DNA of 64,000 nucleotides, from the NCBI RefSeq assembly GCF_003987435.1, contig NZ_PIQG01000002.1, positions 62,001-126,000 of the forward strand, in the 5' to 3' direction. How positions within the stretch are numbered: the first letter of the stretch is position 1; every line of letters starts with the position of its first letter. The position numbers were made by a program, and so were the translations under genes. The notes beneath the pieces were generated by a model. That model searched no databases, was not told where the DNA came from, and worked only from the letters and a program-made list of their open reading frames with translations. This document shows, one piece after another, positions 6,952 to 19,214 of the stretch. Source of the DNA: Pseudidiomarina taiwanensis (GTDB lineage: Bacteria > Pseudomonadota > Gammaproteobacteria > Enterobacterales > Alteromonadaceae).

Positions 6952-7028
6952 TGGTCGGCGAGACTGGATTCGAACCAGCGACCCCTTGTACCCAAAACAA
7001 GTGCGCTACCAAGCTGCGCTACTCGCCG
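6952..7028 (-). tRNA. tRNA-Pro (anticodon TGG), copy 2
   Basis: 77 bases including an encoded CCA end. The acceptor stem CGGCGAG / CTCGCCG is perfect, the anticodon loop TTTGGGT gives TGG, and the T arm carries GGTTCGAATCC. It is the last gene of a four-tRNA transcription unit and is identical in sequence to the Pro copy at 7263-7339. Confidence 0.97.
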
Positions 7029-7055
7029 CCACAGAATCTTAGGATTTTTTTGAAA

Positions 7056-7132
7056 TGGGGTGGCTGATGGGATTCGAACCCACGACCACCGGAATCACAA
7101 TCCGGGGCTCTACCAACTGAGCTACAGCCACC
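7056..7132 (-). tRNA. tRNA-His (anticodon GTG)
   Basis: 77 bases with an encoded CCA and an encoded extra 5' G at position -1, the hallmark of tRNA-His. The anticodon loop is centred on GTG (ATTGTGAT), and the D and T arms are canonical. Confidence 0.97.
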
Positions 7133-7166
7133 ACAACAAAAGAGACAATTTGTGCCAGGGCATAAA

Positions 7167-7243
<77 letters not shown>

Positions 7244-7262
7244 ATGTCATCCAACGCGAAAA

Positions 7263-7339
7263 TGGTCGGCGAGACTGGATTCGAACCAGCGACCCCTTGT
7301 ACCCAAAACAAGTGCGCTACCAAGCTGCGCTACTCGCCG
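7263..7339 (-). tRNA. tRNA-Pro (anticodon TGG), copy 1
   Basis: 77 bases, identical to the Pro copy at 6952-7028. It is the first gene of the tRNA unit, about 48 bases downstream of a near-consensus promoter. Confidence 0.97.
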
Positions 7340-7386
7340 ACATTTCGTGTAAACCCGTGCAGGACGCGGCCTGACAACGGGGGCGA

Positions 7387-7415
7387 ATAATACCCATTGC
7401 GCTATGAAGCGTCAA
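7387..7415 (-). promoter_or_regulatory. Promoter of the tRNA operon
   Basis: Minus strand TTGACG (7410-7415), a 17-base spacer and TATTAT (7387-7392), followed by a C-rich discriminator (TCGCCCCC). GC-rich discriminators are typical of stable-RNA promoters under stringent control, so growth-rate regulation is likely. Confidence 0.75.
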
Positions 7416-7585: not shown

Positions 7586-8449
7586 ATGTCGGCGCAAACT
7601 ATCGATGGGAAAAAAGTGGCTCAACAAGTGCGTGATCAAGTCCGCGAACGCGTCGCCGCACGCGTAAGTCAGGGTTATCGGGCTCCAGGTCTAGCGGTCG
7701 TGCTAGTGGGCCGCGACCCCGCCTCGCAGGTGTATGTTGGCAGTAAACGCCGTGCCTGCGAAGAGGTTGGAATTACCTCAAAAGCCTTTGACCTTCCCGC
7801 CACCACCTCCCAAGCTGAACTTGAACAACTCATCGATAAACTTAATCAAGACCCTGAAGTGGATGGCATTTTAGTCCAGCTACCGCTACCTGAAGGGCTC
7901 GATTCTCAAGCTATTTTAGAGCGGATTAACCCGTTTAAAGATGTCGATGGCTTCCACCCTTTTAATATGGGCCGCTTAGCTCAACGTAACCCTGCATTAC
8001 GACCTTGTACTCCACGGGGCGTGATTACCTTGCTCGAGACGACTGGGGTTGATCTCCATGGTTTGCATGCAGTCGTCGTCGGCGCTTCAAATATCGTCGG
8101 CCGCCCAATGGCGCTTGAACTCTTGCTCGCTGGGGCAACCACCACCGTCTGTCACCGCTTTACCCATGATCTTGAACATCATGTTCGCCAAGCGGATTTA
8201 GTAGTGGTCGCAGTGGGTAAACCGAATTTCGTCCCAGGTGACTGGATCAAGCCAGGTGCAATTGTCATCGATGTTGGCATCAATCGCCGCGCTGATGGCA
8301 GCCTCTGCGGCGATGTTGAATATGCTATCGCAGCTGAGCGCGCTGCGTTTATCACCCCTGTCCCGGGCGGCGTTGGTCCAATGACGGTAGCTACGCTTAT
8401 GCAAAATACCCTGCAGGCCTGCGACACCTGGCATAATCCAATCGCCTAA
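7586..8449 (+). CDS. folD: Bifunctional methylenetetrahydrofolate dehydrogenase / cyclohydrolase FolD
   Basis: Cytoplasmic enzyme that interconverts 5,10-methylene-, methenyl- and 10-formyl-tetrahydrofolate, using NADP. It has 287 residues, the usual length. Family signatures include the catalytic region [20 protein letters not shown] (Tyr and Lys near 50-57), [10 protein letters not shown] near 97 and the C-terminal [14 protein letters not shown]. The start is preceded by TTAGGGAAA. It stands alone on the plus strand, and its stop codon ends one base from the stop of the convergent TadE-like gene. Identification is secure. Confidence 0.98.
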
Positions 8450-8450
8450 G

Positions 8451-9107
8451 TCATTCTGGAAGCACCAAGCGATCGCTCAACATTGGGCTACTCACTTGGT
8501 GCTGCAAACCCCATAAAGGTATCCCAACAAGCTGTTGACGGGCTCGACAAAAACGCTGAGCCGGATGCTTTGATTGCGCTGCCACCCAGCTAAAAAATGT
8601 ACCAATGAGGGGAAGCCGTAAGGGCTGGCACCAGCGGATCCGCAAAGTTAAAGTTCGTGCTCGCTGTTCAAGCTCAGGTTGAGTCGAAAGCTGATAACGT
8701 AGAGGCAAATGTGACCATGGGATGACGCGTTGCTTATCCTTAGTGACTGCCAACTGCCGTTCAGCTTCACCAAACTCCATAATTTTCAAAGCCGCAATTT
8801 GTTTCACCCACAAACGCTGCTGTAAATAAGCGCGACCGAGTTCGACCGTGGCACCGCTGCGCATCGACGCCAGCGCTTGGGGCTCAACTCCTAACATCGC
8901 CGCGGCTAATTCCGCCTCGGCGACCGCTACTTGCCCTTGTTGTAATGCAGCAGAGCGCGCCGCTTGCGCACTTGCCACTTGCAGCATTTGTTGCGCCCAA
9001 ATCAGCCACAGGATTTGGAGCACCGCGAAACTGATAAACAACAGCAAAGGTAACGCGAGTAACGCCTCAACCACAGCTTGTCCTTTGTAGCGACCAAACT
9101 TAACCAC
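8451..9107 (-). CDS. TadE-like pseudopilin, last gene of the type IVb-like pilus cluster
   Basis: About 218 residues. The N-terminus YKG-QAVVEALLALPLLLFIS followed by a hydrophobic helix is typical of TadE/TadF/TadG-type pseudopilins. It also fits a prepilin-peptidase site (G then x4 then E). The remainder is probably extracytoplasmic and has four Cys after residue 150. A GTG start at 9107 with AAGGGC just upstream is preferred; it overlaps the stop of the preceding PilV-like gene by eight bases. A TTG at 9122 is the alternative. Translational coupling to the pilus genes suggests a role in that apparatus, but TadE proteins normally belong to Flp/Tad pili rather than this family. The exact role is unknown. 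Confidence 0.75.
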   Translation of the reverse strand: MVKFGRYKGQAVVEALLALPLLLFISFAVLQILWLIWAQQMLQVASAQAARSAALQQGQVAVAEAELAAAMLGVEPQALASMRSGATVELGRAYLQQRLWVKQIAALKIMEFGEAERQLAVTKDKQRVIPWSHLPLRYQLSTQPELEQRARTLTLRIRWCQPLRLPLIGTFFSWVAAQSKHPAQRFCRARQQLVGIPLWGLQHQVSSPMLSDRLVLPE

Positions 9108-9840
9108 AACGCCCTTGAGCAACGCAACTGTTCCAAAGAGCCTGGAGCAGGTCCAGCTGCTGCTTCAATTGCAGCAAACTCCCTTCTGGGCTGATCAAGG
9201 AGTCTACCTCGAGATGCTCAATGCGGGCATGCGTTGCGCTAAAGTCGCTGGTTTGGACCAAATCACTTTGCACCATAGTCACACTCGCTGAAGTAGCTTG
9301 CAATTGACTCACATTCGTTAGCGCATGACCGTTCATCTGCAAATCAACCTGCATCTCGTTTAACTCTGGCTGCTGCGGCTGTGGCTGCCGATGTAAAAAC
9401 CGTTCGGCATTCGCGACTTGGCTATAATCTGGCTCTAACACTTCGATAAAAACTTGCTCTTGTACGGCCCGAGCACCTGGCAACTGACTTGCGAACCAGC
9501 GCGCCTCTGCATGATTTGGCGCAGCAATTTGTAACTGTAGATGCTCTGCCTGCGGTAACACTTGCCAAGTTTGTTGCCACGGCTCAACAAATCCGGAGCT
9601 GCCATCCGGATGGCTTAGTTGACTCAAATCACTCGGTACTTTGTGAGTTTGCTGCCACTGTGTTTGCAACGCAGATATCAATAATTCCGTGTCGTAGACC
9701 CACGTTTGACGGGTGCTCAATTGTTGCTGTTGAGCATACCATTGGCCTAAGAACATCAAGCCAACCCCAATCAAGGTGAGCGCCACGATCAACTCAAGTA
9801 GAACAAATCCAGTTACTTTATGGTCGCGCTTTGTCGCCAT
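9100..9840 (-). CDS. PilV-like minor pilin without a shufflon
   Basis: About 246 residues. The leader MATKRDHKVTG is followed by FVLLELIVALTLIGVGLMFLG, a type IV prepilin N-terminus with Glu at +5. Further on, MQVDLQMNGHALTNVSQLQA resembles the joint region of R64-type PilV adhesin pilins, where DLxMNGxxIxNV motifs precede the variable tip. The C-terminus ends in a Cys pair (CVAQGRCG). The ATG at 9840 is chosen because AGAGG lies eight bases upstream and it starts directly at the leader; the reading frame remains open further upstream. It overlaps the end of the small prepilin gene by 28 bases. It is probably a tip or minor pilin for surface contact; no shufflon repeats or recombinase were found. 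Confidence 0.7.
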   Translation of the reverse strand: MATKRDHKVTGFVLLELIVALTLIGVGLMFLGQWYAQQQQLSTRQTWVYDTELLISALQTQWQQTHKVPSDLSQLSHPDGSSGFVEPWQQTWQVLPQAEHLQLQIAAPNHAEARWFASQLPGARAVQEQVFIEVLEPDYSQVANAERFLHRQPQPQQPELNEMQVDLQMNGHALTNVSQLQATSASVTMVQSDLVQTSDFSATHARIEHLEVDSLISPEGSLLQLKQQLDLLQALWNSCVAQGRCG

Positions 9841-10037
9841 CTTTGCTGCCTCTCTTGATAGGCTTGCCATCTCTGCTGCGCAATTTGATGCTGACGTTGC
9901 GCCAGCATCAAACTCCCTTCTACCACAGCTGCTGTAGATAAACTCTGTGACCAGTACCAAAAGCCTCCGCTAACCGTGCTCAGTATCAGCAACGCAAAAA
10001 TCAACTCCAGCAGCAATCCACCCGCTTGTCGTTTCAT
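9813..10037 (-). CDS. Very small prepilin-like protein of the type IVb-like pilus cluster
   Basis: Only 74 residues. MKRQAG-GLLLELIFALLILSTVS is a complete prepilin N-terminus: a basic leader, Gly before the cleavage site, Glu at +5 and a hydrophobic helix. It is followed by a Gln/Arg-rich helical tail with no visible globular pilin domain. The start overlaps the pilS stop as ATGA, so the two are translationally coupled. The end overlaps the PilV-like gene. It could be a helix-only minor subunit that primes or anchors the pilus. A frameshifted remnant of a larger pilin is possible, since downstream frames carry another prepilin, but each has its own start and ribosome binding site. Confidence 0.65.
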   Translation of the reverse strand: MKRQAGGLLLELIFALLILSTVSGGFWYWSQSLSTAAVVEGSLMLAQRQHQIAQQRWQAYQERQQRWRQSATIK

Positions 10038-10474
10038 CCTTGGAAGCGCACGACCAAGGCGCCGGCACTGTAACTTGCATCGAGAGCGTAGTCAGCGAAA
10101 TCACGAGCCAGACGCGCGCCTTCAGCATTCTCATCAATGCCATCAAGGGTGACGACGTAACGGGTGGGGTCGGAGCCATCAACCTCAACATTGACATCAC
10201 CCCCCCAAGGGTTGAGACCCACACCATCGCCCCAATTTTGTGGTACTGCAGCAATACCCGACATTGACGCTAAGCTAATGCCGCTATAGGTACCGTCGCG
10301 CGGGCGCCACAATGCTGAACCTGACTGAATGGTGATAATTTGGCTTTTCGCCTCACTCACTCGAGCATTGCCCAACGCCCAATCTCGGACCGTTAAGGAG
10401 CCAATTGTGGCGATCGCAATGATCGATAACACTGTGAGCACTTCAATGAAGGTAAATCCCTTTACTTGTTTCAT
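10034..10474 (-). CDS. pilS: Major pilin (PilS-like type IV prepilin)
   Basis: 146 residues. The leader MKQVKG is followed by FTFIEVLTVLSIIAIATIGSL, a canonical prepilin motif with Phe at +1 and Glu at +5. The mature protein is about 140 residues and has no Cys, so it lacks the C-terminal disulfide loop of most type IV pilins. The ATG at 10474 has AAGGAAAG just upstream; an in-frame GTG at 10495 would lengthen the leader to 13 residues. The gene follows pilR by 22 bases and is the likeliest major subunit because it is the only pilin here with a full-length globular domain. The position after PilR matches R64 pilS. Confidence 0.8.
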   Translation of the reverse strand: MKQVKGFTFIEVLTVLSIIAIATIGSLTVRDWALGNARVSEAKSQIITIQSGSALWRPRDGTYSGISLASMSGIAAVPQNWGDGVGLNPWGGDVNVEVDGSDPTRYVVTLDGIDENAEGARLARDFADYALDASYSAGALVVRFQG

Positions 10475-10496
10475 CTTACTTTCCTTTTGATTCACA

Positions 10497-11525
10497 TCAG
10501 ACCAATTGAGTCTGCTGAGTTAATTGCATGAGCATAGTCCCCATGCCACCGACTGCTACCCCAAGACAACTAAAGATCATGAGATAACAGAAACTTTGTA
10601 AGCCTTGCCGCAAGCGCGCTAAACTCGCTACCGCATCATTTGCCGCATACCCCGCAACGCGGGCCAGAGTCGCCTGCTCCGTTGCACTGCGACTCGCATT
10701 GGCTAGGCGGAACAACATTCGGGGCGCCAGTAAGCCAACATTCAATAATTGCGCTAGCTCCTTTTCACCGTTGTTAAGACGGCTTTGAATCAACCGACAG
10801 GCGCGCGCAAGGAGCCCTCCAGCTCGAATTTGCATCGCGTTAACCGCCCGATTGAGATTCACTTGCGCGGCCAATAGCACGGTTAATGTTTGCAGTAACT
10901 CAACCGCGATAAAATAACGTTGCACTCGAAAGGCGCCATAGTTTACCAGCCATTGGTAACTGCTAAGGCGTTGCAGCGCGCCACTTGGGACACCACACAC
11001 CCAAATCAATAGCAGTAATAACGCCAGCAACACTGCCGTGACCAGTAATGGTTGGCTCAGCCAATACAGGGCTTGAGCTAATTCTGGCCAAGCGCTGATC
11101 GGAAGATTAGTTGCTAATTTGGGTAACACGGTTTGGCCGATAAAAAACACGGCTAGCACGGCAATAAATAACATAATCGCGGGATATAGCAGGGGCCGAA
11201 TAAACTGCTGCAGAGCTTGGCTACGTTGCAGCTGCGCGGCGCCATAACGGGCGAGCAGTTGCGGTAACTGACCGCTGCGCTCACCGACATCGACTAACAT
11301 TAATAAGTCAGCATTAATAAACGGCGTGAGAGCTGCTGCGAGCGGCTCACCGCGTTGTAGTGCGCTGGCGACCTGCTGTGCAAATTGACGTTCCCCGCGC
11401 AGGTTTTGGGTTTGTGCATGACGTGCAAGTTGTGCTGTCGCTTGTAATGGACTCAAGCCATCTTGCAAAGCGAGGGCAAAATCCTCTAACAGCTCAAGTT
11501 GCCGTGCCTTACTCAGTTGCTTCAT
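10497..11525 (-). CDS. pilR: Inner-membrane pilus assembly protein PilR (GspF family)
   Basis: 342 residues. Polytopic platform protein that couples the assembly ATPase to pilin insertion. It has two GspF/T2SSF-type cytoplasmic domains, the first with the signature GEPLAAALTPFINADLLMLVDVGERSGQLPQLL, and three membrane segments (LLYPAIMLFIAVLAVFFIG; LLVTAVLLALLLLLIWVCGV; CYLMIFSCLGVAVGGMGTML). The ATG at 11525, preceded by GAGG, is chosen; it overlaps the end of pilQ by 17 bases. An upstream in-frame start at 11558 would overlap further. In R64-type clusters this is the gene directly before the major pilin, as here. Confidence 0.85.
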   Translation of the reverse strand: MKQLSKARQLELLEDFALALQDGLSPLQATAQLARHAQTQNLRGERQFAQQVASALQRGEPLAAALTPFINADLLMLVDVGERSGQLPQLLARYGAAQLQRSQALQQFIRPLLYPAIMLFIAVLAVFFIGQTVLPKLATNLPISAWPELAQALYWLSQPLLVTAVLLALLLLLIWVCGVPSGALQRLSSYQWLVNYGAFRVQRYFIAVELLQTLTVLLAAQVNLNRAVNAMQIRAGGLLARACRLIQSRLNNGEKELAQLLNVGLLAPRMLFRLANASRSATEQATLARVAGYAANDAVASLARLRQGLQSFCYLMIFSCLGVAVGGMGTMLMQLTQQTQLV

Positions 11526-12906
11526 GATTTGCCTCACTGGCCTTGAGCTGGGTTTCAATTGACTGCCAGCCTTGCTCGACTAATTGCTGGAAATAACGTG
11601 CGAGCTGTCCCTCACGAAAGGCTTGTGCAAAAGCCTGGTCGCAATCAATCCATTCATAAACTAACCGTCGACCACTTGCGCCAACACCGTGACAGTGGTC
11701 ACAAACAGGATTATTACCCAGACAATGCGGACAGCGAATGCTCACCAGCCGCTGCGCAATAATGCCTCGCAGCACTCCTGGTTGGGCTAAATTTGCCGCA
11801 CTCAAACCAAGATCAAGTAACCGCTGTGCCGCCCCAGCGCAATCATGCGCGTGCAAGGTTGCCGTCACAATATGCCCAGTCAACGCCGCTGAGTAGGCCG
11901 CCTGCGCAGTCTTTTCGTCGCGAATCTCGCTAATCGAGATAAGATCAGGATCCTCGCGCAAGGCAACTTTCACCATGTTGGCAAAATTCAACTCAGGATG
12001 CTCAGCAAGCACTGGCTTTTGCTCGATCTGTGGCTGTACAATTTCGATCGGGTCTTCAAGCGAAATTGCCTTTTGCGCACTCGATAGCTGTAGATTTAAT
12101 CCTGCTAGGGTGGTGGTTTTCCCCTGCCCAGTTGCGCCAATCACTAAAATCAGTCCGCTTTTTTGCTGCAACCAACTCGCAACCGCGCGACAAACAGCTG
12201 GTTCAAAACCTAACTGAGCCAGAGTTAACACTTCGGCCTGTTCATTTTGAATCCGCATGGTTACCGCAAAGCCTAATCGCGTCGGTGACTTCTGGACGCG
12301 CAGGCGCAGTGCCAGCGGTCGCTCACGAACAATGACAGTTAAGCGAATACTGGCACTAGATAAACTTTGCTCAGAGTAAAGCTCGTGAAAATCGTCTGAA
12401 CGCGTATTTAAGGCCGCGGCGATAGCAGCACTCATCAGTTCGCGTGGTCGCTCAGTTCGTTGTACCAAAGCTCCATGCACCCGAAATGCGACGGTCGCTT
12501 GTTGCGGCTCAAACAGCAAATGAATATCCGAAGCCGCATAGACCAATGCTTGTTGAACCAAGTCTTCTAAGGCCTGATGCGCTCGACTACGTTGTTGCTC
12601 GGTGACCAAGCTGCGGCGTTGAACTTCCTGACTGGCCACCGCGTCATGCAATAACTTGCGAATTTCATGAGCAGGAGAGCAAAGCTGCGCTTTGATGTGC
12701 GCCCCAGAGCGTTCCATCAGTACACAAATGTTATTTAATTCCAGTGCTCGATAATGCCAAGCCGAAGGCGACACTACTAACACCCCATCTTTGGTGACTA
12801 AGGCTGCAACATCTTGCTCATCAGCCTCAGAAATTGCCAGGCAGTAAGGCAACATAGGTTCCGCCAGTTGCTGCCAATGCCATTGCTCTAAACCGACTGT
12901 TTTCAT
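11509..12906 (-). CDS. pilQ: Pilus assembly ATPase PilQ (GspE/VirB11 family)
   Basis: 465 residues. Cytoplasmic hexameric ATPase that powers pilus extension. Walker A is GATGQGKTT at 257-265. The Asp box (SLEDPIEIVQ) and Walker B region (DPDLISISEIRDEKTA) follow, with the His box TATLHAHD. A tetracysteine zinc site is present (CPHC and CDHC at 392-405), as in many GspE proteins. The start overlaps the pilP stop by four bases (ATGA). No second PilT-type retraction ATPase is in the cluster, which agrees with R64-type systems placing one ATPase between PilP and PilR. Confidence 0.88.
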   Translation of the reverse strand: MKTVGLEQWHWQQLAEPMLPYCLAISEADEQDVAALVTKDGVLVVSPSAWHYRALELNNICVLMERSGAHIKAQLCSPAHEIRKLLHDAVASQEVQRRSLVTEQQRSRAHQALEDLVQQALVYAASDIHLLFEPQQATVAFRVHGALVQRTERPRELMSAAIAAALNTRSDDFHELYSEQSLSSASIRLTVIVRERPLALRLRVQKSPTRLGFAVTMRIQNEQAEVLTLAQLGFEPAVCRAVASWLQQKSGLILVIGATGQGKTTTLAGLNLQLSSAQKAISLEDPIEIVQPQIEQKPVLAEHPELNFANMVKVALREDPDLISISEIRDEKTAQAAYSAALTGHIVTATLHAHDCAGAAQRLLDLGLSAANLAQPGVLRGIIAQRLVSIRCPHCLGNNPVCDHCHGVGASGRRLVYEWIDCDQAFAQAFREGQLARYFQQLVEQGWQSIETQLKASEANHEATE

Positions 12907-13319
12907 CTTAATTCCCCCAACCGACTGAGCATTTTTTGCTGGCCATCGTAACGCGCGTAAACTGCATCATCCTCACGCCAAAGATATAACCCAGAGGGAT
13001 GTTCAAACGCTAACGGTAACTGCAATAATTGTTGCTGCCAAACCACCACCGCTAATGCTTTATCTGCGGTTTCAATCAGTCCTTGCCACTGCAATGTTGC
13101 CAGCGGATTCGCTGCAACTGGCGCATGTTGCAGTTGTGCCATCGCATGTTTAGCTTGCGCGACTTGCAGCGCATACTGAGCCTGCTGCGCTTGCAATTGT
13201 GCTCGGCGCTCGCGCAACTCTTCGGTACGAATCGCTTTAAGCTGCTCGCTATGGTTGGCGCTTGGTGGTGCGACACTCACCAATTCAGTTCCTAATAACA
13301 ACACCAGTGCGGTGATCAT
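12903..13319 (-). CDS. pilP: PilP-like pilus biogenesis protein
   Basis: 138 residues with a hydrophobic N-terminus (ITALVLLLGTELVSVA) that looks like a signal peptide or anchor, then a long Gln/Ala-rich coiled-coil (QLKAIRTEELRERRAQLQAQ onwards) and a compact C-terminal domain. Placed between the PilO-like protein and the ATPase, it matches R64 PilP in order, size and overall form; sequence conservation in this family is low, so the assignment rests partly on position. It is probably a periplasmic partner of PilO. GGAGA lies upstream of the ATG, and the end overlaps the pilQ start by four bases. Confidence 0.65.
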   Translation of the reverse strand: MITALVLLLGTELVSVAPPSANHSEQLKAIRTEELRERRAQLQAQQAQYALQVAQAKHAMAQLQHAPVAANPLATLQWQGLIETADKALAVVVWQQQLLQLPLAFEHPSGLYLWREDDAVYARYDGQQKMLSRLGELR

Positions 13320-13338
13320 ACGATGGGTTCTCCCTAAC

Positions 13339-14526
13339 TTAGCGCGCCTGGTAATAGCGCAAATTCATGGTGACAGCGGGGTTGGCGCCGACGTCATAAT
13401 GAAAACTCAAGAGCCGCCAAGCTCCGCTCAAGTGAGTTAGCTGTAACAATTCACTCCAGCTATGTTCCGTTAGCTCGAGTTGGAGGTCCTGATGCTGCCA
13501 CCAATGTTCAGTGGTCAGCGGATGCTGCTGGGTGAGCAATAAGTTCGCCGACCTAGGTAATTGCGAGGCAGCATCGGTTTGCTGTGGCCAAGGCCATGTA
13601 TCTGCGAGTCTTAGCGGCGCAACGATATCATTCACCAAGACCTGCTCCACTAGCGCACTGCCCCGACTCGAGCTGACTTGCCAAACCGCGTCGAGCTGCA
13701 ATTGCAATTCAGCTAAAGTCGCAAAATCAGCTTGATAATTTGCACTGAGCTTGCCATCACTCTGCAACTGGACCTTCGTCAGACGCCAACCACTCACGCT
13801 TTGTAATTCTTCAAGTGCAGCAGCAAGCTGCGATGCCAGCGCCATACCCAAACCAGCCGGTCTTAATTCAGCCACCTCAGCAGTGAGTGGCGCCGCTTGC
13901 GCAGCGGCTTCTTGCTGTAAATCAAAACTTAGCCAGAGGCCCAAGCCAACCAGCACGAGTGCACACACCAAAAGTTGCCAAGGCCGCCAAAAGCTCACTC
14001 CTGGCAGCGGCTTAAAACGATAACGGCGACAGCCCTTGAGCGTATCTCCAAGTGGTGTTTGTTGCGCCTCAAATGCGATTCCTGCAGCCTCTAATTGTTT
14101 CGCTAGAGGATGCTCTGGCGCCTCGATAAGTTGCAAAGGCAGTGCCGCTGTCTGATTGCCATCGAGTTGCCACAAAGTTTGCAATTGAGCGAGGTCCTGA
14201 GCAGTGCGACCCAGTTGAATGGCGCCACATAATTGGCCTTGGTTCCACCTGACCCAAAACAATCGATCTGAACTCGAAATCAGAATCTGTGCCCGTTCAT
14301 GAGCTTTAAACCGCTCCACGATAAGAGCTAAGCGGTCTGCATAACGCTTACCGCGCTCAGCCTCAATACAACTTACCCAATAGCCGCCTTTTACCCGAAT
14401 ACTGTGATAATGGTTAAAGCCCAATTGCCGTGCTTCCTCCAGCACCTGTCGCAGTGCCCTGGCGTTAGCGGCCTGTACCCGCCAGCATTGTTCAATCCAG
14501 TGCCAAGTTGGAGCGTGTTGACGCAT
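13339..14526 (-). CDS. pilO: PilO-like (type 4b PilO2) pilus assembly protein
   Basis: 395 residues. A cytoplasmic N-terminal domain of about 180 residues is followed by a single membrane segment (QLLVCALVLVGLGLWLSF, about 184-201) and a periplasmic C-terminal part of nearly 200 residues. This bitopic layout is that of the R64 PilO2 family, which aligns the inner-membrane complex with the outer-membrane secretin. The start is three bases after the secretin stop. It resembles neither MshI/MshJ nor PilM/PilN of type IVa pili. Assignment is from topology and position, supported by the neighbours. Confidence 0.7.
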   Translation of the reverse strand: MRQHAPTWHWIEQCWRVQAANARALRQVLEEARQLGFNHYHSIRVKGGYWVSCIEAERGKRYADRLALIVERFKAHERAQILISSSDRLFWVRWNQGQLCGAIQLGRTAQDLAQLQTLWQLDGNQTAALPLQLIEAPEHPLAKQLEAAGIAFEAQQTPLGDTLKGCRRYRFKPLPGVSFWRPWQLLVCALVLVGLGLWLSFDLQQEAAAQAAPLTAEVAELRPAGLGMALASQLAAALEELQSVSGWRLTKVQLQSDGKLSANYQADFATLAELQLQLDAVWQVSSSRGSALVEQVLVNDIVAPLRLADTWPWPQQTDAASQLPRSANLLLTQQHPLTTEHWWQHQDLQLELTEHSWSELLQLTHLSGAWRLLSFHYDVGANPAVTMNLRYYQAR

Positions 14527-14529
14527 CGG

Positions 14530-16008
14530 CTAGCCCTCAATAATTCGTGGGGTAATCAACAGCAAAGTCTCGGTTTGTTGTTGCGATTGTTGATTCCGCC
14601 CACCTAACAACAAGCTCAACCAAGATTCTTGTTCCTGAGTGGTTTCCCGATGTTGTTGTAAGCCAGACAACAGTAGCGTTTCGCCATCTCCCACCCGCGC
14701 CTTCATAAAGAACTTTTTGCGCTGTGTATGTGGCGTTTGAATTAATTGCTCACCGGAGCGAACCTCATCGATTGCTTGTAAATCGGAAATTTCACTGGAG
14801 AGCTGCAAAATCACCTGGTCTTGCTGAATACTGGGGAGCAAATACAGCTCAAAACCCGTCGTCACAACCCCTGGCTCTAATGTGGTCGAGGTCCCAACAT
14901 TTGCAGTTGCGACACTGCCAGCTGCGGCTAAATAGGTGGCGTTATCTTCGAGCACTAATTTAGCGATCTGGTTATTAAGGCTCAGTAAGCGCGGCTGCTT
15001 ACGACTATTTACCCTTCCCTGCTCTTGCAAAGCCTCGAAAAATACTTGGCTCCCTGCGGCGCGCCCGCTTTGTTGAGTCCAACTTAATTGGCTACCGAGC
15101 ACTCCGCCACTGGTAAAACTGGCAGAAGAGAGTGCCAATTGGCCAGAGCCACTGGCGGTCTCGAGCAACGCCTGCCAATCAATGCTGAACTGCTCGTTCT
15201 GGTGAAAGGTTACCTCGATGATTTGCACATCGATTGCAACTTGACGCAGTAGTCGCTCATTTTGCTCGGCGAGATAGCGTGCGACGCGTTCCATTCGTTG
15301 CGGTGTATCGCGCACTAGGACAGAGGTTGAACTTTGATTCAATTGCACCGTGCCATGTGCTGATAGCAATAATTTTAGGCCAGCCTCGAGGTCGCGCCAG
15401 ACCGAGAGTTCATCATTGCTAAAGTTTAGGAATTGGTCGCTAGTTTGGGTGAAAGCACTCCGCTCGGTATTCCCTTGAGTCCGCTGTTGCTGATTTTTAT
15501 TCCCCAAAAAGTACTGGGTCGAACCATTTAGGAAAGCGACATCGAAACTACGGAGTTGATATTTACTCCAGCTAATAAAATCACGACCGAATTCAAGATG
15601 AAACCCAGTTTGTCGCTTCAGCTCAGCCAGTAAACCACCGAGCGAGCCATGGTATTGCAATGAAATTGGCCGCTCTAATTCAGGGCGGTCAATAAAGTCA
15701 ACGCGGATCTCATGGGCGGCAAATGTCTCGTGCACTAACGCGGTAAAACCTATCTCTGTAACCGCTACAGTGACAGGGCGATGAAACCAAGCAGGTTGTG
15801 ACAATTCATCAGGTGATAAACTCGGTACCCAAAACTCATCTTCATAAGCCACAGTCTGAGGTTCGCCCCGCAGCGCCAACGCTTGTTGCTGCGCTTTAGC
15901 TAATTGCTGCTGCAGTTCAGTTGGTGGGGTTGAATCCGCTTGCGGTTGACTACTGCAACTGAACAGTAAAGTGGTCGCAGTTGCGAACAAAATGAAGTGG
16001 GGGCGCAT
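14530..16008 (-). CDS. pilN: Lipoprotein secretin PilN of a type IVb-like pilus
   Basis: 492 residues. Outer-membrane secretin through which the pilus exits. The N-terminus ends in a lipobox (TLLFSC, Cys18), typical for R64 PilN and BfpB/TcpC-type lipoprotein secretins rather than type IVa PilQ. N-domains occupy about 100-280 (RPISLQYHGSLGGLLAELKR; VLVRDTPQRMERVARYLAEQ). The secretin domain follows to the C-terminus, with VGDGETLLLSGLQQHRETTQ and the end LLLITPRIIEG. Its ATG shares one base with the stop of the upstream TcpQ/PilL-like gene (TGATG), so the two are coupled. Identification as a secretin is secure; the PilN subtype is well supported. Confidence 0.87.
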   Translation of the reverse strand: MRPHFILFATATTLLFSCSSQPQADSTPPTELQQQLAKAQQQALALRGEPQTVAYEDEFWVPSLSPDELSQPAWFHRPVTVAVTEIGFTALVHETFAAHEIRVDFIDRPELERPISLQYHGSLGGLLAELKRQTGFHLEFGRDFISWSKYQLRSFDVAFLNGSTQYFLGNKNQQQRTQGNTERSAFTQTSDQFLNFSNDELSVWRDLEAGLKLLLSAHGTVQLNQSSTSVLVRDTPQRMERVARYLAEQNERLLRQVAIDVQIIEVTFHQNEQFSIDWQALLETASGSGQLALSSASFTSGGVLGSQLSWTQQSGRAAGSQVFFEALQEQGRVNSRKQPRLLSLNNQIAKLVLEDNATYLAAAGSVATANVGTSTTLEPGVVTTGFELYLLPSIQQDQVILQLSSEISDLQAIDEVRSGEQLIQTPHTQRKKFFMKARVGDGETLLLSGLQQHRETTQEQESWLSLLLGGRNQQSQQQTETLLLITPRIIEG

Positions 16009-16430
16009 CAGCTTTGCGCTCCGCGATAGCTAAGCCGCGCACTGCGATTGGCGTAAATGGTAAGTTGAATCCCGTAGGGTTTCAGGAGTCGCTGCAGTAG
16101 CTCACCCCAACTCGGTGCATCAAGCCGCATATCAGCGGGCCAGCGGTGATGGGGTGAGATTTGCCAATCGATCCAATCGACCTCGAGATGAGCTCGAATA
16201 AGCTGCTCGACTTGGGGTTGCAATAAACCTTGGTTGAGTTCAGCACTGACCGCTGGCTTAGACTCAGAAAGCGGAGTTGGCGTACTCGCTGCGAGTGTTT
16301 GCCAAGCTGCCGCAATAGCAAAGGGCGCGCATTGCTGTGCTTGCAGTGGTGCCGACATCAAGCTCAGGAAAAGCCCTGAGCTGACGCCGACGAGGACCTG
16401 GGTAAGCCCTTGAGTTGGTTTAAGAACCAT
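16008..16430 (-). CDS. TcpQ/PilL-like periplasmic pilus protein, first gene of the cluster
   Basis: About 140 residues with a signal peptide (VLVGVSSGLFLSLMSAPLQA). The C-terminal half (WPADMRLDAPSWGELLQRLL, then KPYGIQLTIYANRSARL) resembles the C-terminal domain of TcpQ and of R64 PilL, which helps the secretin reach or assemble in the outer membrane. It is much shorter than R64 PilL, essentially signal plus domain. The ATG at 16430 has a near-perfect ribosome binding site, AAGGAGGT, three to four bases upstream; an in-frame ATG at 16478 has none. The strong site suggests translation of the operon is set here. topA ends 102 bases upstream on the same strand. Confidence 0.65.
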   Translation of the reverse strand: MVLKPTQGLTQVLVGVSSGLFLSLMSAPLQAQQCAPFAIAAAWQTLAASTPTPLSESKPAVSAELNQGLLQPQVEQLIRAHLEVDWIDWQISPHHRWPADMRLDAPSWGELLQRLLKPYGIQLTIYANRSARLSYRGAQS

Positions 16431-16532: not shown

Positions 16533-19214
16533 TTATTTCTTCGCTTTAGTTTTTGCTTTCGACTTAGCCTTGGCTTTCGGCTTGGCTTTTTTCTTTGGTG
16601 CTTCGACCTGTTGCCACTCACCATCGCGATAATACGCTTGCCAACCGGTTTGCTTACCGTCCTGCTCAGTCACCACATACTGCTCTTTCTGCTTGCGACT
16701 ATAGCGGACAATTGCCTCGTTACCCTCAGCATCAGCTACGGGAGCCTCGGCAAGATAATGAAACTTCGCTGGAATACGATCTTTAAAGCGCTTCAATTCG
16801 GCAACTTTTACCGCCCGAGTCTCCCGTGATTTCGGGAAGGTATTGGCCGATAAGAAAATACCCGAGGCGCCATCACGCAGCACGAAGTAAGCATCCGATT
16901 GCTCACATGGTAACTCTGGCAGTGGCACAGGGTCTTCTTTCGGTGGCGCTGGCTGACCATTTTTAAGCAATTTACGGGTGTTTTTACATTCGCTGTTGGT
17001 ACAGTCGAAATACTTCCCGAAACGTCCAGTTTTGAGCTGCATGTCGCTACCACAGCGATCACATTCAAGGACCGGACCATCGTAACCTTTGATGCGGAAT
17101 TCGCCCTGCTCGAGCAACTGCCCCGAACAGCTCGGATTGTTCCCGCAGACATGCAATTTGCGGTGCTGGTCGATCAAATAGCTGTCCATCGCGGTACCAC
17201 ATTTTGGACAGCGTTTCTTCGCCCGCAACGCAGTGGTTTCAGCTTCTTCATCATCGCTTACCGCAATCGCCTCTTCACCCGGCAGCAAGTTCATGGTTTG
17301 CGTGCAGCGCTCTTTGGGCGGCAATTCATAGCCCGAACAGCCTAAGAACACCCCGGTGCTGGCGGTTCGAATCCCCATCTTGCGGCCACAGCTTGGACAG
17401 TCGATATCCGTTAACACCATCTTATTGCCACGCATACCCCCCTCTTCCGGAGGGAGCTCGGCTTGTTCAAGTTTTTTACTAAACTCGAGATAGAACTGAT
17501 CGAGGGTTTCTTTCCAGTTCCTCTTGCCTGCTGCAATATCATCGAGGGCCTGCTCCATTTCGGCAGTGAAGTTGAAGTTCAGCAGGCGCGAGAAATTCTC
17601 GACTAAGCGGTCATTGACAATTTCACCCATTTTTTCTGCGAAAAAGCGGCGATTCTCAACGCGTACATAGCCGCGATCTTGAATCGTTGAAATAATCGCG
17701 GCGTAGGTCGAAGGACGTCCGATTCCACGTTTTTCTAGCTCTTTAACCAATGACGCTTCGCTAAATCGAGCCGGTGGCTTGGTAAAATGCTGTTGCGGAT
17801 CAAGCTCAAGCAAATCCAATACTTGCCCAGGTTGGACATCAGGCAAGGTCGTCTCTTCGCTCTTTTTCGCACTCGCTGGCGGTTGCACTTTGGTCCAGCC
17901 AGGGAAACGCAGAACTCGCCCACGCGCTTTTAACTCATAATCACCCGCAGCAACCGTCAAGGTTGTTGCATCGTATTGCGCTGGGGTCATCTGACAAGCA
18001 ACAAATTGGCGCCAAATGAGTTCGTATAGACGCTGCGCATCACGCTCCATATCTTTTAGTTGCTCAGACCGTACCGACACGTTAGACGGACGAATCGCCT
18101 CGTGCGCCTCTTGCGCGTTTTGCTTCGAGCCATAAAAGTTCGGCTTAGCCGGCAAATAATCCGCGCCGTATTGCTTTTCAATAAACTCGCGACAATGATA
18201 GAGCGCTTCTTGGCTCAAATTGGTCGAGTCAGTACGCATATAGGTGATATGACCCGCTTCGTATAAGCGCTGCGCCAGCATCATGGTTTTCTTTACCCCA
18301 AACCCGAGCCGAGTGCTCGCTGCTTGCTGCAAAGTTGAGGTAATAAAAGGTGCGGATGGACGGCTACTGGTCGGCTTATCTTCGCGTTCACGGACGACAT
18401 AATTAGCTTGTTTGAGCGCTGCAACCGTGCGTTCGGCGGCTTCTTGGTCCACCGCTTTAAAGGGTTTGCCAAGATAACGCTGGACCTGCATCCGCAGTGA
18501 TTCAGCTTTGGCCGCCCGTAAATCGGCATAGATATCCCAATATTCTTCTGGAACAAAGGCCTTAATCTCGCGCTCACGTTCAACAACCAAGCGCACTGCA
18601 ACTGATTGCACTCGACCTGCGGATAAGCCACGGGCAATTTTCTTCCACAGCAGTGGCGACACCATAAAGCCCACCACCCGATCAAGGAAGCGCCGAGTTT
18701 GCTGAGCATTTACTCGGTCAAGGTTAACCTGCGCGGGGTGTGAGAAGGCATCCTGAATTGCATTTTTGGTAATCTCGTTAAAGACGACACGCTGGAAGCG
18801 CTCGTTCGGGCCGCCAATAAGCTCGCGCAAATGCCACGCGATAGCTTCTCCTTCGCGGTCCAAATCCGTTGCGAGATAGACTTTGTCAGCTTTGCTGGCA
18901 AGCTTTTGTAATTCTGCCACCACTTTTTCTTTACCGGGCAGAACTTCGTAGTGGGCTTCCCAGTTGTGGGTGGGATCAATACCCATACGCGCCACCAGCT
19001 TTTCAAATTCGCGCTGTTTCTTATAGGCAGCTTTCGCCTCATCTGACATCTTACGAACTTCAGCTGCGGGCTTAGCTTTAACACTTTCCACGGTCCGAGT
19101 CGGTAAATCTCGAACATGGCCGACACTCGATTTCACAATAAAATCGTTGCCTAAATATTTATTTATAGTCTTCGCCTTAGCAGGCGACTCGACAATAACG
19201 AGTGATTTGCTCAT
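16533..19214 (-). CDS. topA: DNA topoisomerase I (type IA)
   Basis: 893 residues. Relaxes negative supercoils by cutting one strand through a tyrosine. The N-terminus [20 protein letters not shown] starts the Toprim domain, with [13 protein letters not shown] near 117-129. The active-site Tyr is in [13 protein letters not shown] (near 330). The C-terminal region has three Cys4 zinc ribbons ([27 protein letters not shown]), then a winged region and a very basic tail rich in Lys-Ala repeats. Full length for the family. The pilus cluster follows on the same strand without a clear terminator. Identification is secure. Confidence 0.98.

Follow-up and report, generated by a model that had tools for sequence, protein, structure and literature searches.

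A probable exchange of terminal minor-pilin genes between the type IVb and Tad pilus operons in the Idiomarina/Pseudidiomarina group

The topA-folD locus of Pseudidiomarina taiwanensis

The window analyzed here, a 64,000-nucleotide stretch of P. taiwanensis contig NZ_PIQG01000002.1 (positions 62,001 to 126,000 of the forward strand; assembly GCF_003987435.1), contains ten open reading frames (ORFs; P1 to P10) that run on the minus strand from 16430 to 8451, fill the interval between topA and folD, and make up a type IVb pilus gene cluster closed by a gene of the TadE family. Intergenic gaps do not exceed 19 bases and overlaps range from 1 to about 28 bases (the P5/P6 overlap reaches 50 bases when counted from the earliest start of P6, and the likeliest start of P9 is 9840); a sigma-70-like site on the minus strand was not found within the cluster, and no peptidase, transglycosylase or PilM gene was found within the ten ORFs. 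The ORFs and the family matches bear out the initial annotation of the locus as ten coupled minus-strand genes forming a chromosomal type IVb cluster in the order known from R64. In the order in which the minus strand is read, the features are as follows:

16533..19214, minus strand: topA, flanking gene
16008..16430, minus strand: P1, small STN-like protein and secretin partner at the PilL/TcpQ position (ORF, STN, weak TcpQ similarity)
14530..16008, minus strand: P2, PilN-type secretin (TIGR02520, BfpB relative)
13339..14526, minus strand: P3, inner-membrane protein in the PilO position (same-slot homologues in other type IVb clusters)
12903..13319, minus strand: P4, small protein in the PilP position (weak PilP similarity)
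11509..12906, minus strand: P5, assembly ATPase, PilQ in R64 nomenclature (T2SSE PF00437)
10497..11558, minus strand: P6, platform protein, PilR in R64 nomenclature (T2SSF PF00482)
10034..10495, minus strand: P7, PilS-like major pilin, a Glu5-bearing prepilin (N_methyl)
9813..10037, minus strand: P8, small minor prepilin (ORF, prepilin-like N-terminus)
9100..9840, minus strand: P9, PilV-like minor pilin with Glu5 (Shufflon_N, paralogue of X, see below)
8451..9122, minus strand: P10, minor pilin of the TadE family; begins with TTG and overlaps the P9 end (PF07811)
7586..8449, plus strand: folD, flanking gene

Protein families of the type IVb genes

The best NCBIfam model for P2 is TIGR02520 (PilN, type IVB; E 2.9e-62, under the curated cut-off), and the competing secretin models, namely MshL of the mannose-sensitive haemagglutinin (MSHA) pilus (2.3e-33) and GspD of type II secretion (5.1e-19), are weaker, so that an MSHA or type II secretion identity was rejected for this protein, though the best models for P5 and P6 are GspE (2.1e-57, far under its cut-off) and ComGB (2.9e-16), respectively. 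The closest PDB relative of P2 is BfpB (9u5s, profile E 6e-45), and the cluster possesses in it a secretin of the PilN/TcpC/BfpB family; it also encodes an assembly ATPase (P5, PF00437, E 7.2e-69), a platform protein (P6, PF00482, E 9.4e-14), a PilS-similar major prepilin (P7, N_methyl, E 9.8e-6, with matches to plasmid “type 4 pilus major pilin” genes and 76% mean column identity over 25 members) and a PilV-like minor pilin (P9, Shufflon_N in 9 of 24 members, best E 2.5e-5, the Pfam matches of the window copy being weak only). A prepilin peptidase (PF01478) is encoded apart from the cluster, by a single gene beside pilB in this genome (one per genome in each of six genomes), an arrangement that the type IVb model, in the pertinent part of PMC6668835, permits by treating the peptidase as a loner gene.

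While the PilN, PilQ, PilR, PilS and PilV labels of the initial annotation stand, those of PilL/TcpQ, PilO and PilP are labels of position and weak profile similarity, because P1, P3 and P4 of the window (and P8 likewise) gave no meaningful Pfam match. The STN domain was seen in 5 of 21 P1 members (best E 2e-4), and similarity of P1 to a Hydrogenophaga TcpQ-domain protein is weak (hhalign probability 19, E 1.2e-3). No Pfam family is common to more than one of the 24 P3 members and none of them matches PF06864 (PilO2); P3 is a homologue of the same-slot protein of other Alteromonadaceae/Vibrio type IVb clusters (probability 95.4, E 1.7e-8), and no relation to annotated PilO2 was detectable (probability 0.1, with a PilO2 profile of two rows). 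No Pfam family is common to the P4 members, which are weakly similar to Hydrogenophaga PilP (probability 58, E 9.7e-5) and to the same slot of relatives (probability 20). An ORF similar in size to P8 lies between P7 and P9 in 22 of 25 relatives, P7 or P9 being unassigned in the other three. Six Idiomarina-type full clusters (L123, L124, L126, L127, L128 and L142) have a P9 of 134-135 amino acids (aa) that starts within a few bases of P7 and leaves no space for P8.

A TadE gene away from the Tad locus

The claim that the cluster is closed by a TadE-family gene was confirmed: P10 matches PF07811 above the curated cut-off (E 6.8e-9), the family was found in 26 of 26 members, and the match to TadE proteins of tad loci is full-length (hhalign probability 99.8, E 5.8e-28, 219 columns). 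Residues E19, C165 and C192 of P10 are invariant across 48 sequences, and Glu occupies position +5 in P10 (25/25), P7 (24/24) and P9 (20/23, with two Asp and one unread). P10 is, however, not encoded in a tad locus; it lies between topA and folD in every full or reduced locus read, and the Tad locus of the window genome is on a different contig. In the stand-alone TadE genes (L122, L143-L147, L149, L150) the N-terminus is extended ahead of the prepilin site by a conserved stretch of roughly 25-40 residues, which is missing or shorter in cluster-borne copies.

The Tad locus in question was reached through a T2SSE ATPase search of the window genome, in which an extra ATPase on contig 3 led to a complete locus with the order Flp, TadG-like, TadF-like, a 169-aa protein, CpaB, RcpA, TadA, TadB, TadC, DUF192, TadD and a prepilin termed X here (the TadG, TadF and Flp labels were given by eye and by similarity between loci, there being no Pfam matches). 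Tad-like loci consistently carry TadEFG genes, at least as stated in the relevant section of PMC12075869. Among the 43 genomes with P10 (described below), TadA is present in every one, and at none of their 43 Tad loci, all of which were read, was a convincing tadE found, matches to TadE models being no better than E 1e-4 and falling on Flp, TadF-like and other small prepilin ORFs. Exactly one PF07811 gene was found in 33 of these genomes, always at topA-folD and never at the Tad locus, and nothing in the other 10; as the model misses P10 too in those 10, its silence at the Tad loci is by itself no proof. The tadA gene of G010 (L209:7792-8968) is in two overlapping frames, resembling a frameshift in that assembly.

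The tadE slot directly after tadD is occupied in the window genome by X, a 243-aa prepilin whose gene overlaps tadD. The profile of 14 aligned Pseudidiomarina X proteins matches P9 over its full length (hhalign probability 99.4, E 1.8e-21, 226 columns), with control probabilities of 6.5 against TadE and 10 against P7, and by this similarity X is a paralogue of P9, i.e., a PilV-like/shufflon-type minor pilin; the demonstrated homology covers those 14 proteins, the short Idiomarina forms lying outside it. The +5 site could be read in 29 of 30 X proteins, and in none of these is it Glu. X follows tadD in 15 of 15 Pseudidiomarina genomes of the family sample, 11 with a P9-model match at E<=0.01 and the others via similarity to the window X; eight of nine g47 genomes with a full cluster have an X of 492-588 aa with P9-model matches; among the g129 genomes with a full cluster, X (516 aa) and P9 (375 aa) are both long in G620, and the other six have a 117-137 aa ORF in the X slot and a short P9 (134-135 aa). 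Five of these six short ORFs are mutually similar, that of G609 not convincingly. The size class of X tracks that of P9, even in G620, whose two proteins are long although the rest of its genus has short ones.

Fates of the two terminal genes across three genera

The secretin and TadE each gave strong matches in all 26 Pseudidiomarina genomes examined, that of the window among them, and the TadE gene, whose absence from this locus in all relatives would have spoken against the initial annotation, was found there in 25 of 25 same-genus relatives. The flank folD borders the cluster in 25 of 25 fetched loci and topA in 24, the remaining contig beginning inside P1. A family sample of 295 genomes yielded P10 in 43, counted among genomes matching at least one of three queries, and these fall into three genera (15 Pseudidiomarina, g1; 13 g47; 15 g129); the P10 of G506 was under the search cut-off and was found by reading the locus. 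The type IVb cluster with TadE is ancestral, being shared by Pseudidiomarina and two sister genera.

Three states of the locus were seen: the full cluster with P10 (15/15 g1, 9/13 g47 and 7/15 g129 genomes), P1, P2 and P10 only (4/13 g47), and P10 alone between topA and folD (8/15 g129). The major pilin P7 was not found genome-wide (E 1e-6) in any of the 12 reduced genomes, with both positive controls recovered. Each reduced set forms one clade on the topA tree, so two losses of the type IVb machinery suffice. Purifying selection acts on P10 at the loci where no other cluster gene is left, as the ratio of nonsynonymous to synonymous substitution rates (dN/dS) is 0.056, 0.078, 0.084 and 0.118 for the 4 of 28 stand-alone pairs with dS below 1 (0.058-0.201 with saturated dS in 21 others, three undefined) and 0.080 for the one measurable pair of six in the secretin-retaining set.

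These fates bear directly on the hybrid or distinct pilus subtype that had been proposed for the locus. The gene content does suggest that P10 might be a working type IVb minor pilin, perhaps common to both pili, as it is last in the operon, overlaps P9 and accompanies every full cluster read in three genera; but P10 is conserved in 12 of 12 genomes whose type IVb machinery is gone, the otherwise complete Tad locus elsewhere in the genome has no tadE, and 12 type IVb stretches fetched from other lineages (some cut by contig ends) contained no TadE-like ORF. The last result upholds the remark that the pairing is unusual, whereas the hybrid itself is probably a misreading, and we consider it unlikely.

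The opposite fate was seen for X: it, or the short ORF in its slot, is present in 30 of 31 genomes bearing the type IVb cluster and at the Tad-locus slot of 0 of 12 reduced genomes (Fisher test, 8e-10, on rows that are not independent; in the reduced genomes the slot alone was searched for X). There, tadD is mostly followed by smpB, with an unrelated-looking 307-aa ORF in G661 and a small helix-turn-helix-like ORF in G642. A chance neighbourhood, in which a type IVb cluster was inserted or grew alongside an orphan tadE at topA-folD with no functional meaning, would fit a tadE standing alone at reduced loci, but leaves both the presence of X in the vacated tadE slot and its loss together with the type IVb genes unexplained, and seems improbable.

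Several further observations were made at these and related loci. The four g47 genomes of the intermediate state (L129, L130, L153, L154) have kept P1, the PilN-type secretin and tadE, the ATPase, platform protein and pilins being gone. In genus g142, an STN protein, a PilN-type secretin and two small proteins are found with no pilus ATPase (L160:10488-13566, L161:10409-13548), followed by a gene for a giant glycine-rich secreted protein (L160:5420-10429, L161:4325-10339; 1669 and 2004 aa), and the type IVb secretin has possibly been re-used there for another export task. G647 has a type IVb cluster with a divergent pilin and, between tadE and folD (L156:3365-4098), a VapC-like ORF (labeled by eye) with a small partner ORF. 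Within the window itself, short overlapping plus-strand ORFs at 7019-7390 give peptide strings of a kind common in falsely translated RNA genes and may mark a cluster of tRNAs downstream of the start of folD.

Terminal genes in other lineages

Outside these genera the two genes mostly sit the other way round. TadE follows a TadD-like lipoprotein in seven of nine other gammaproteobacterial Tad loci (L133-L141, by eye; from 8 of 30 other matched genomes and one genome of the family sample), and the gene after P9 fits the X model best in five of six type IVb clusters tested (9e-34 to 6e-56), i.e., those of G441, G660 and three Alteromonadaceae plasmids, with an X homologue that lacks Glu5. Because outside type IVb clusters and Tad loci are so arranged, the ancestral place of X appears to be after P9 and that of tadE after tadD. 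In the mirror-tree comparison, P10 correlates with RcpA (0.44) and TadA (0.32), as against -0.27 to 0.14 with type IVb proteins.

Discussion

The explanation we favor, at a probability of roughly 0.65, is that in the Idiomarina/Pseudidiomarina group the type IVb and Tad operons swapped their terminal minor-pilin genes, with P10 serving as TadE in the Tad pilus and X capping the tip of the type IVb pilus. The genomes themselves show where the genes lie, which of them are homologous, that the Tad loci have no tadE and what became of P10 and X. As the Tad locus lacks tadE, P10 matches TadE over its full length and P10 outlives the type IVb genes, P10 is more likely to act in trans for the Tad pilus. 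The topA-folD operon would thus provide P1-P9 for a type IVb pilus and close with tadE, and the Tad/Flp operon would close, in the usual tadE slot, with X, a PilV-like prepilin belonging to the type IVb pilus, the single PilD-type PF01478 peptidase presumably cleaving P10, P9, X and the other prepilins. TadE, TadF and TadG form and prime the tip of the Tad pilus, according to the part of PMC12075869 that concerns them, and P10 may accordingly be pictured as joining TadF and TadG in trans as tip/priming minor pilins; for type IV tip complexes, the corresponding passages of PMC10191384 describe capping by a subunit lacking Glu5, with assembly beginning from these complexes, and X, devoid of Glu5, may cap such a complex together with P9, a joint complex that the co-variation in size of X and P9 fits.

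Which pilus each protein enters, its role at the tip and any coupling of the two filaments are what we infer from this arrangement. With each operon ending in a priming subunit of the other pilus, both pili might be expressed jointly. A stricter interlock, in which neither pilus is primed unless both operons are expressed and in which this mutual dependence was kept through at least three genera, is a tentative extension that we hold to be rather doubtful.

A number of observations weigh against the exchange. Only two independent losses of the type IVb machinery were seen (sign test, p 0.5), too few for the test to become significant; the mirror-tree values of X are as high with TadB and TadG (0.48) as with type IVb proteins (0.35-0.50), and within Pseudidiomarina the mirror-tree discriminates nothing; one outside type IVb cluster of the six (L067) has no X after P9; G647 (g47) possesses a type IVb cluster (with a short P9 of 146 aa) and no X; the six short X candidates (117-137 aa) have no P9-model match and were identified mainly by position; and the retention of P1 and P2 beside P10 in four genomes is not explained by an exchange. 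The first two of these would also suit X being a subunit of the Tad pilus (a PilV-like replacement tip), lost with the type IVb genes by coincidence in two clades, as would its location in the Tad operon and its overlap with tadD in the window genome. That X has simply been taken over by the Tad pilus nevertheless has little likelihood in our view, as the Tad loci of the 12 reduced genomes manage without it, an X homologue lies inside the type IVb cluster in five of six outside cases, and the size classes of X and P9 go together, G620 included.

Compared with the R64/IncI pilus (via annotated Hydrogenophaga plasmid clusters), the window cluster has the same order of TcpQ/STN protein, PilN, PilO slot, PilP slot, ATPase, platform protein, PilS and PilV, a secretin of the same PilN/BfpB family and a PilV-like signature in P9, but it is chromosomal, vertically kept and ends in tadE, lacks peptidase, transglycosylase and PilM among its ten ORFs, has a P3 that is not detectably PilO2, and has its second PilV-like subunit in the Tad locus. 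The type IVb clusters of Alteromonadaceae plasmids (NZ_CP018030, CP002527, CP013927), G441 and G660 likewise share the P1-P9 order and a homologous P9, whereas they carry the X homologue directly after P9 and no TadE. The gammaproteobacterial Tad/Flp (type IVc) systems, in turn, share the gene order from Flp to TadD, and P10 is their TadE by sequence, whereas here tadE is at topA-folD and X is in the tadE slot.

Pilus systems are classed and annotated by their co-located genes, and in the present case neither locus is complete unless a gene from the other is added, which cautions that neighbourhood alone is insufficient for calling hybrid pili. Natural losses of the type IVb genes, on the other hand, amount to experiments that assign minor pilins to machines. 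Any wiring between two type IV filaments of one cell may thereby become testable, with the strains of the Idiomarina group, bearing either the Tad pilus only or both pili, as a ready comparison set.

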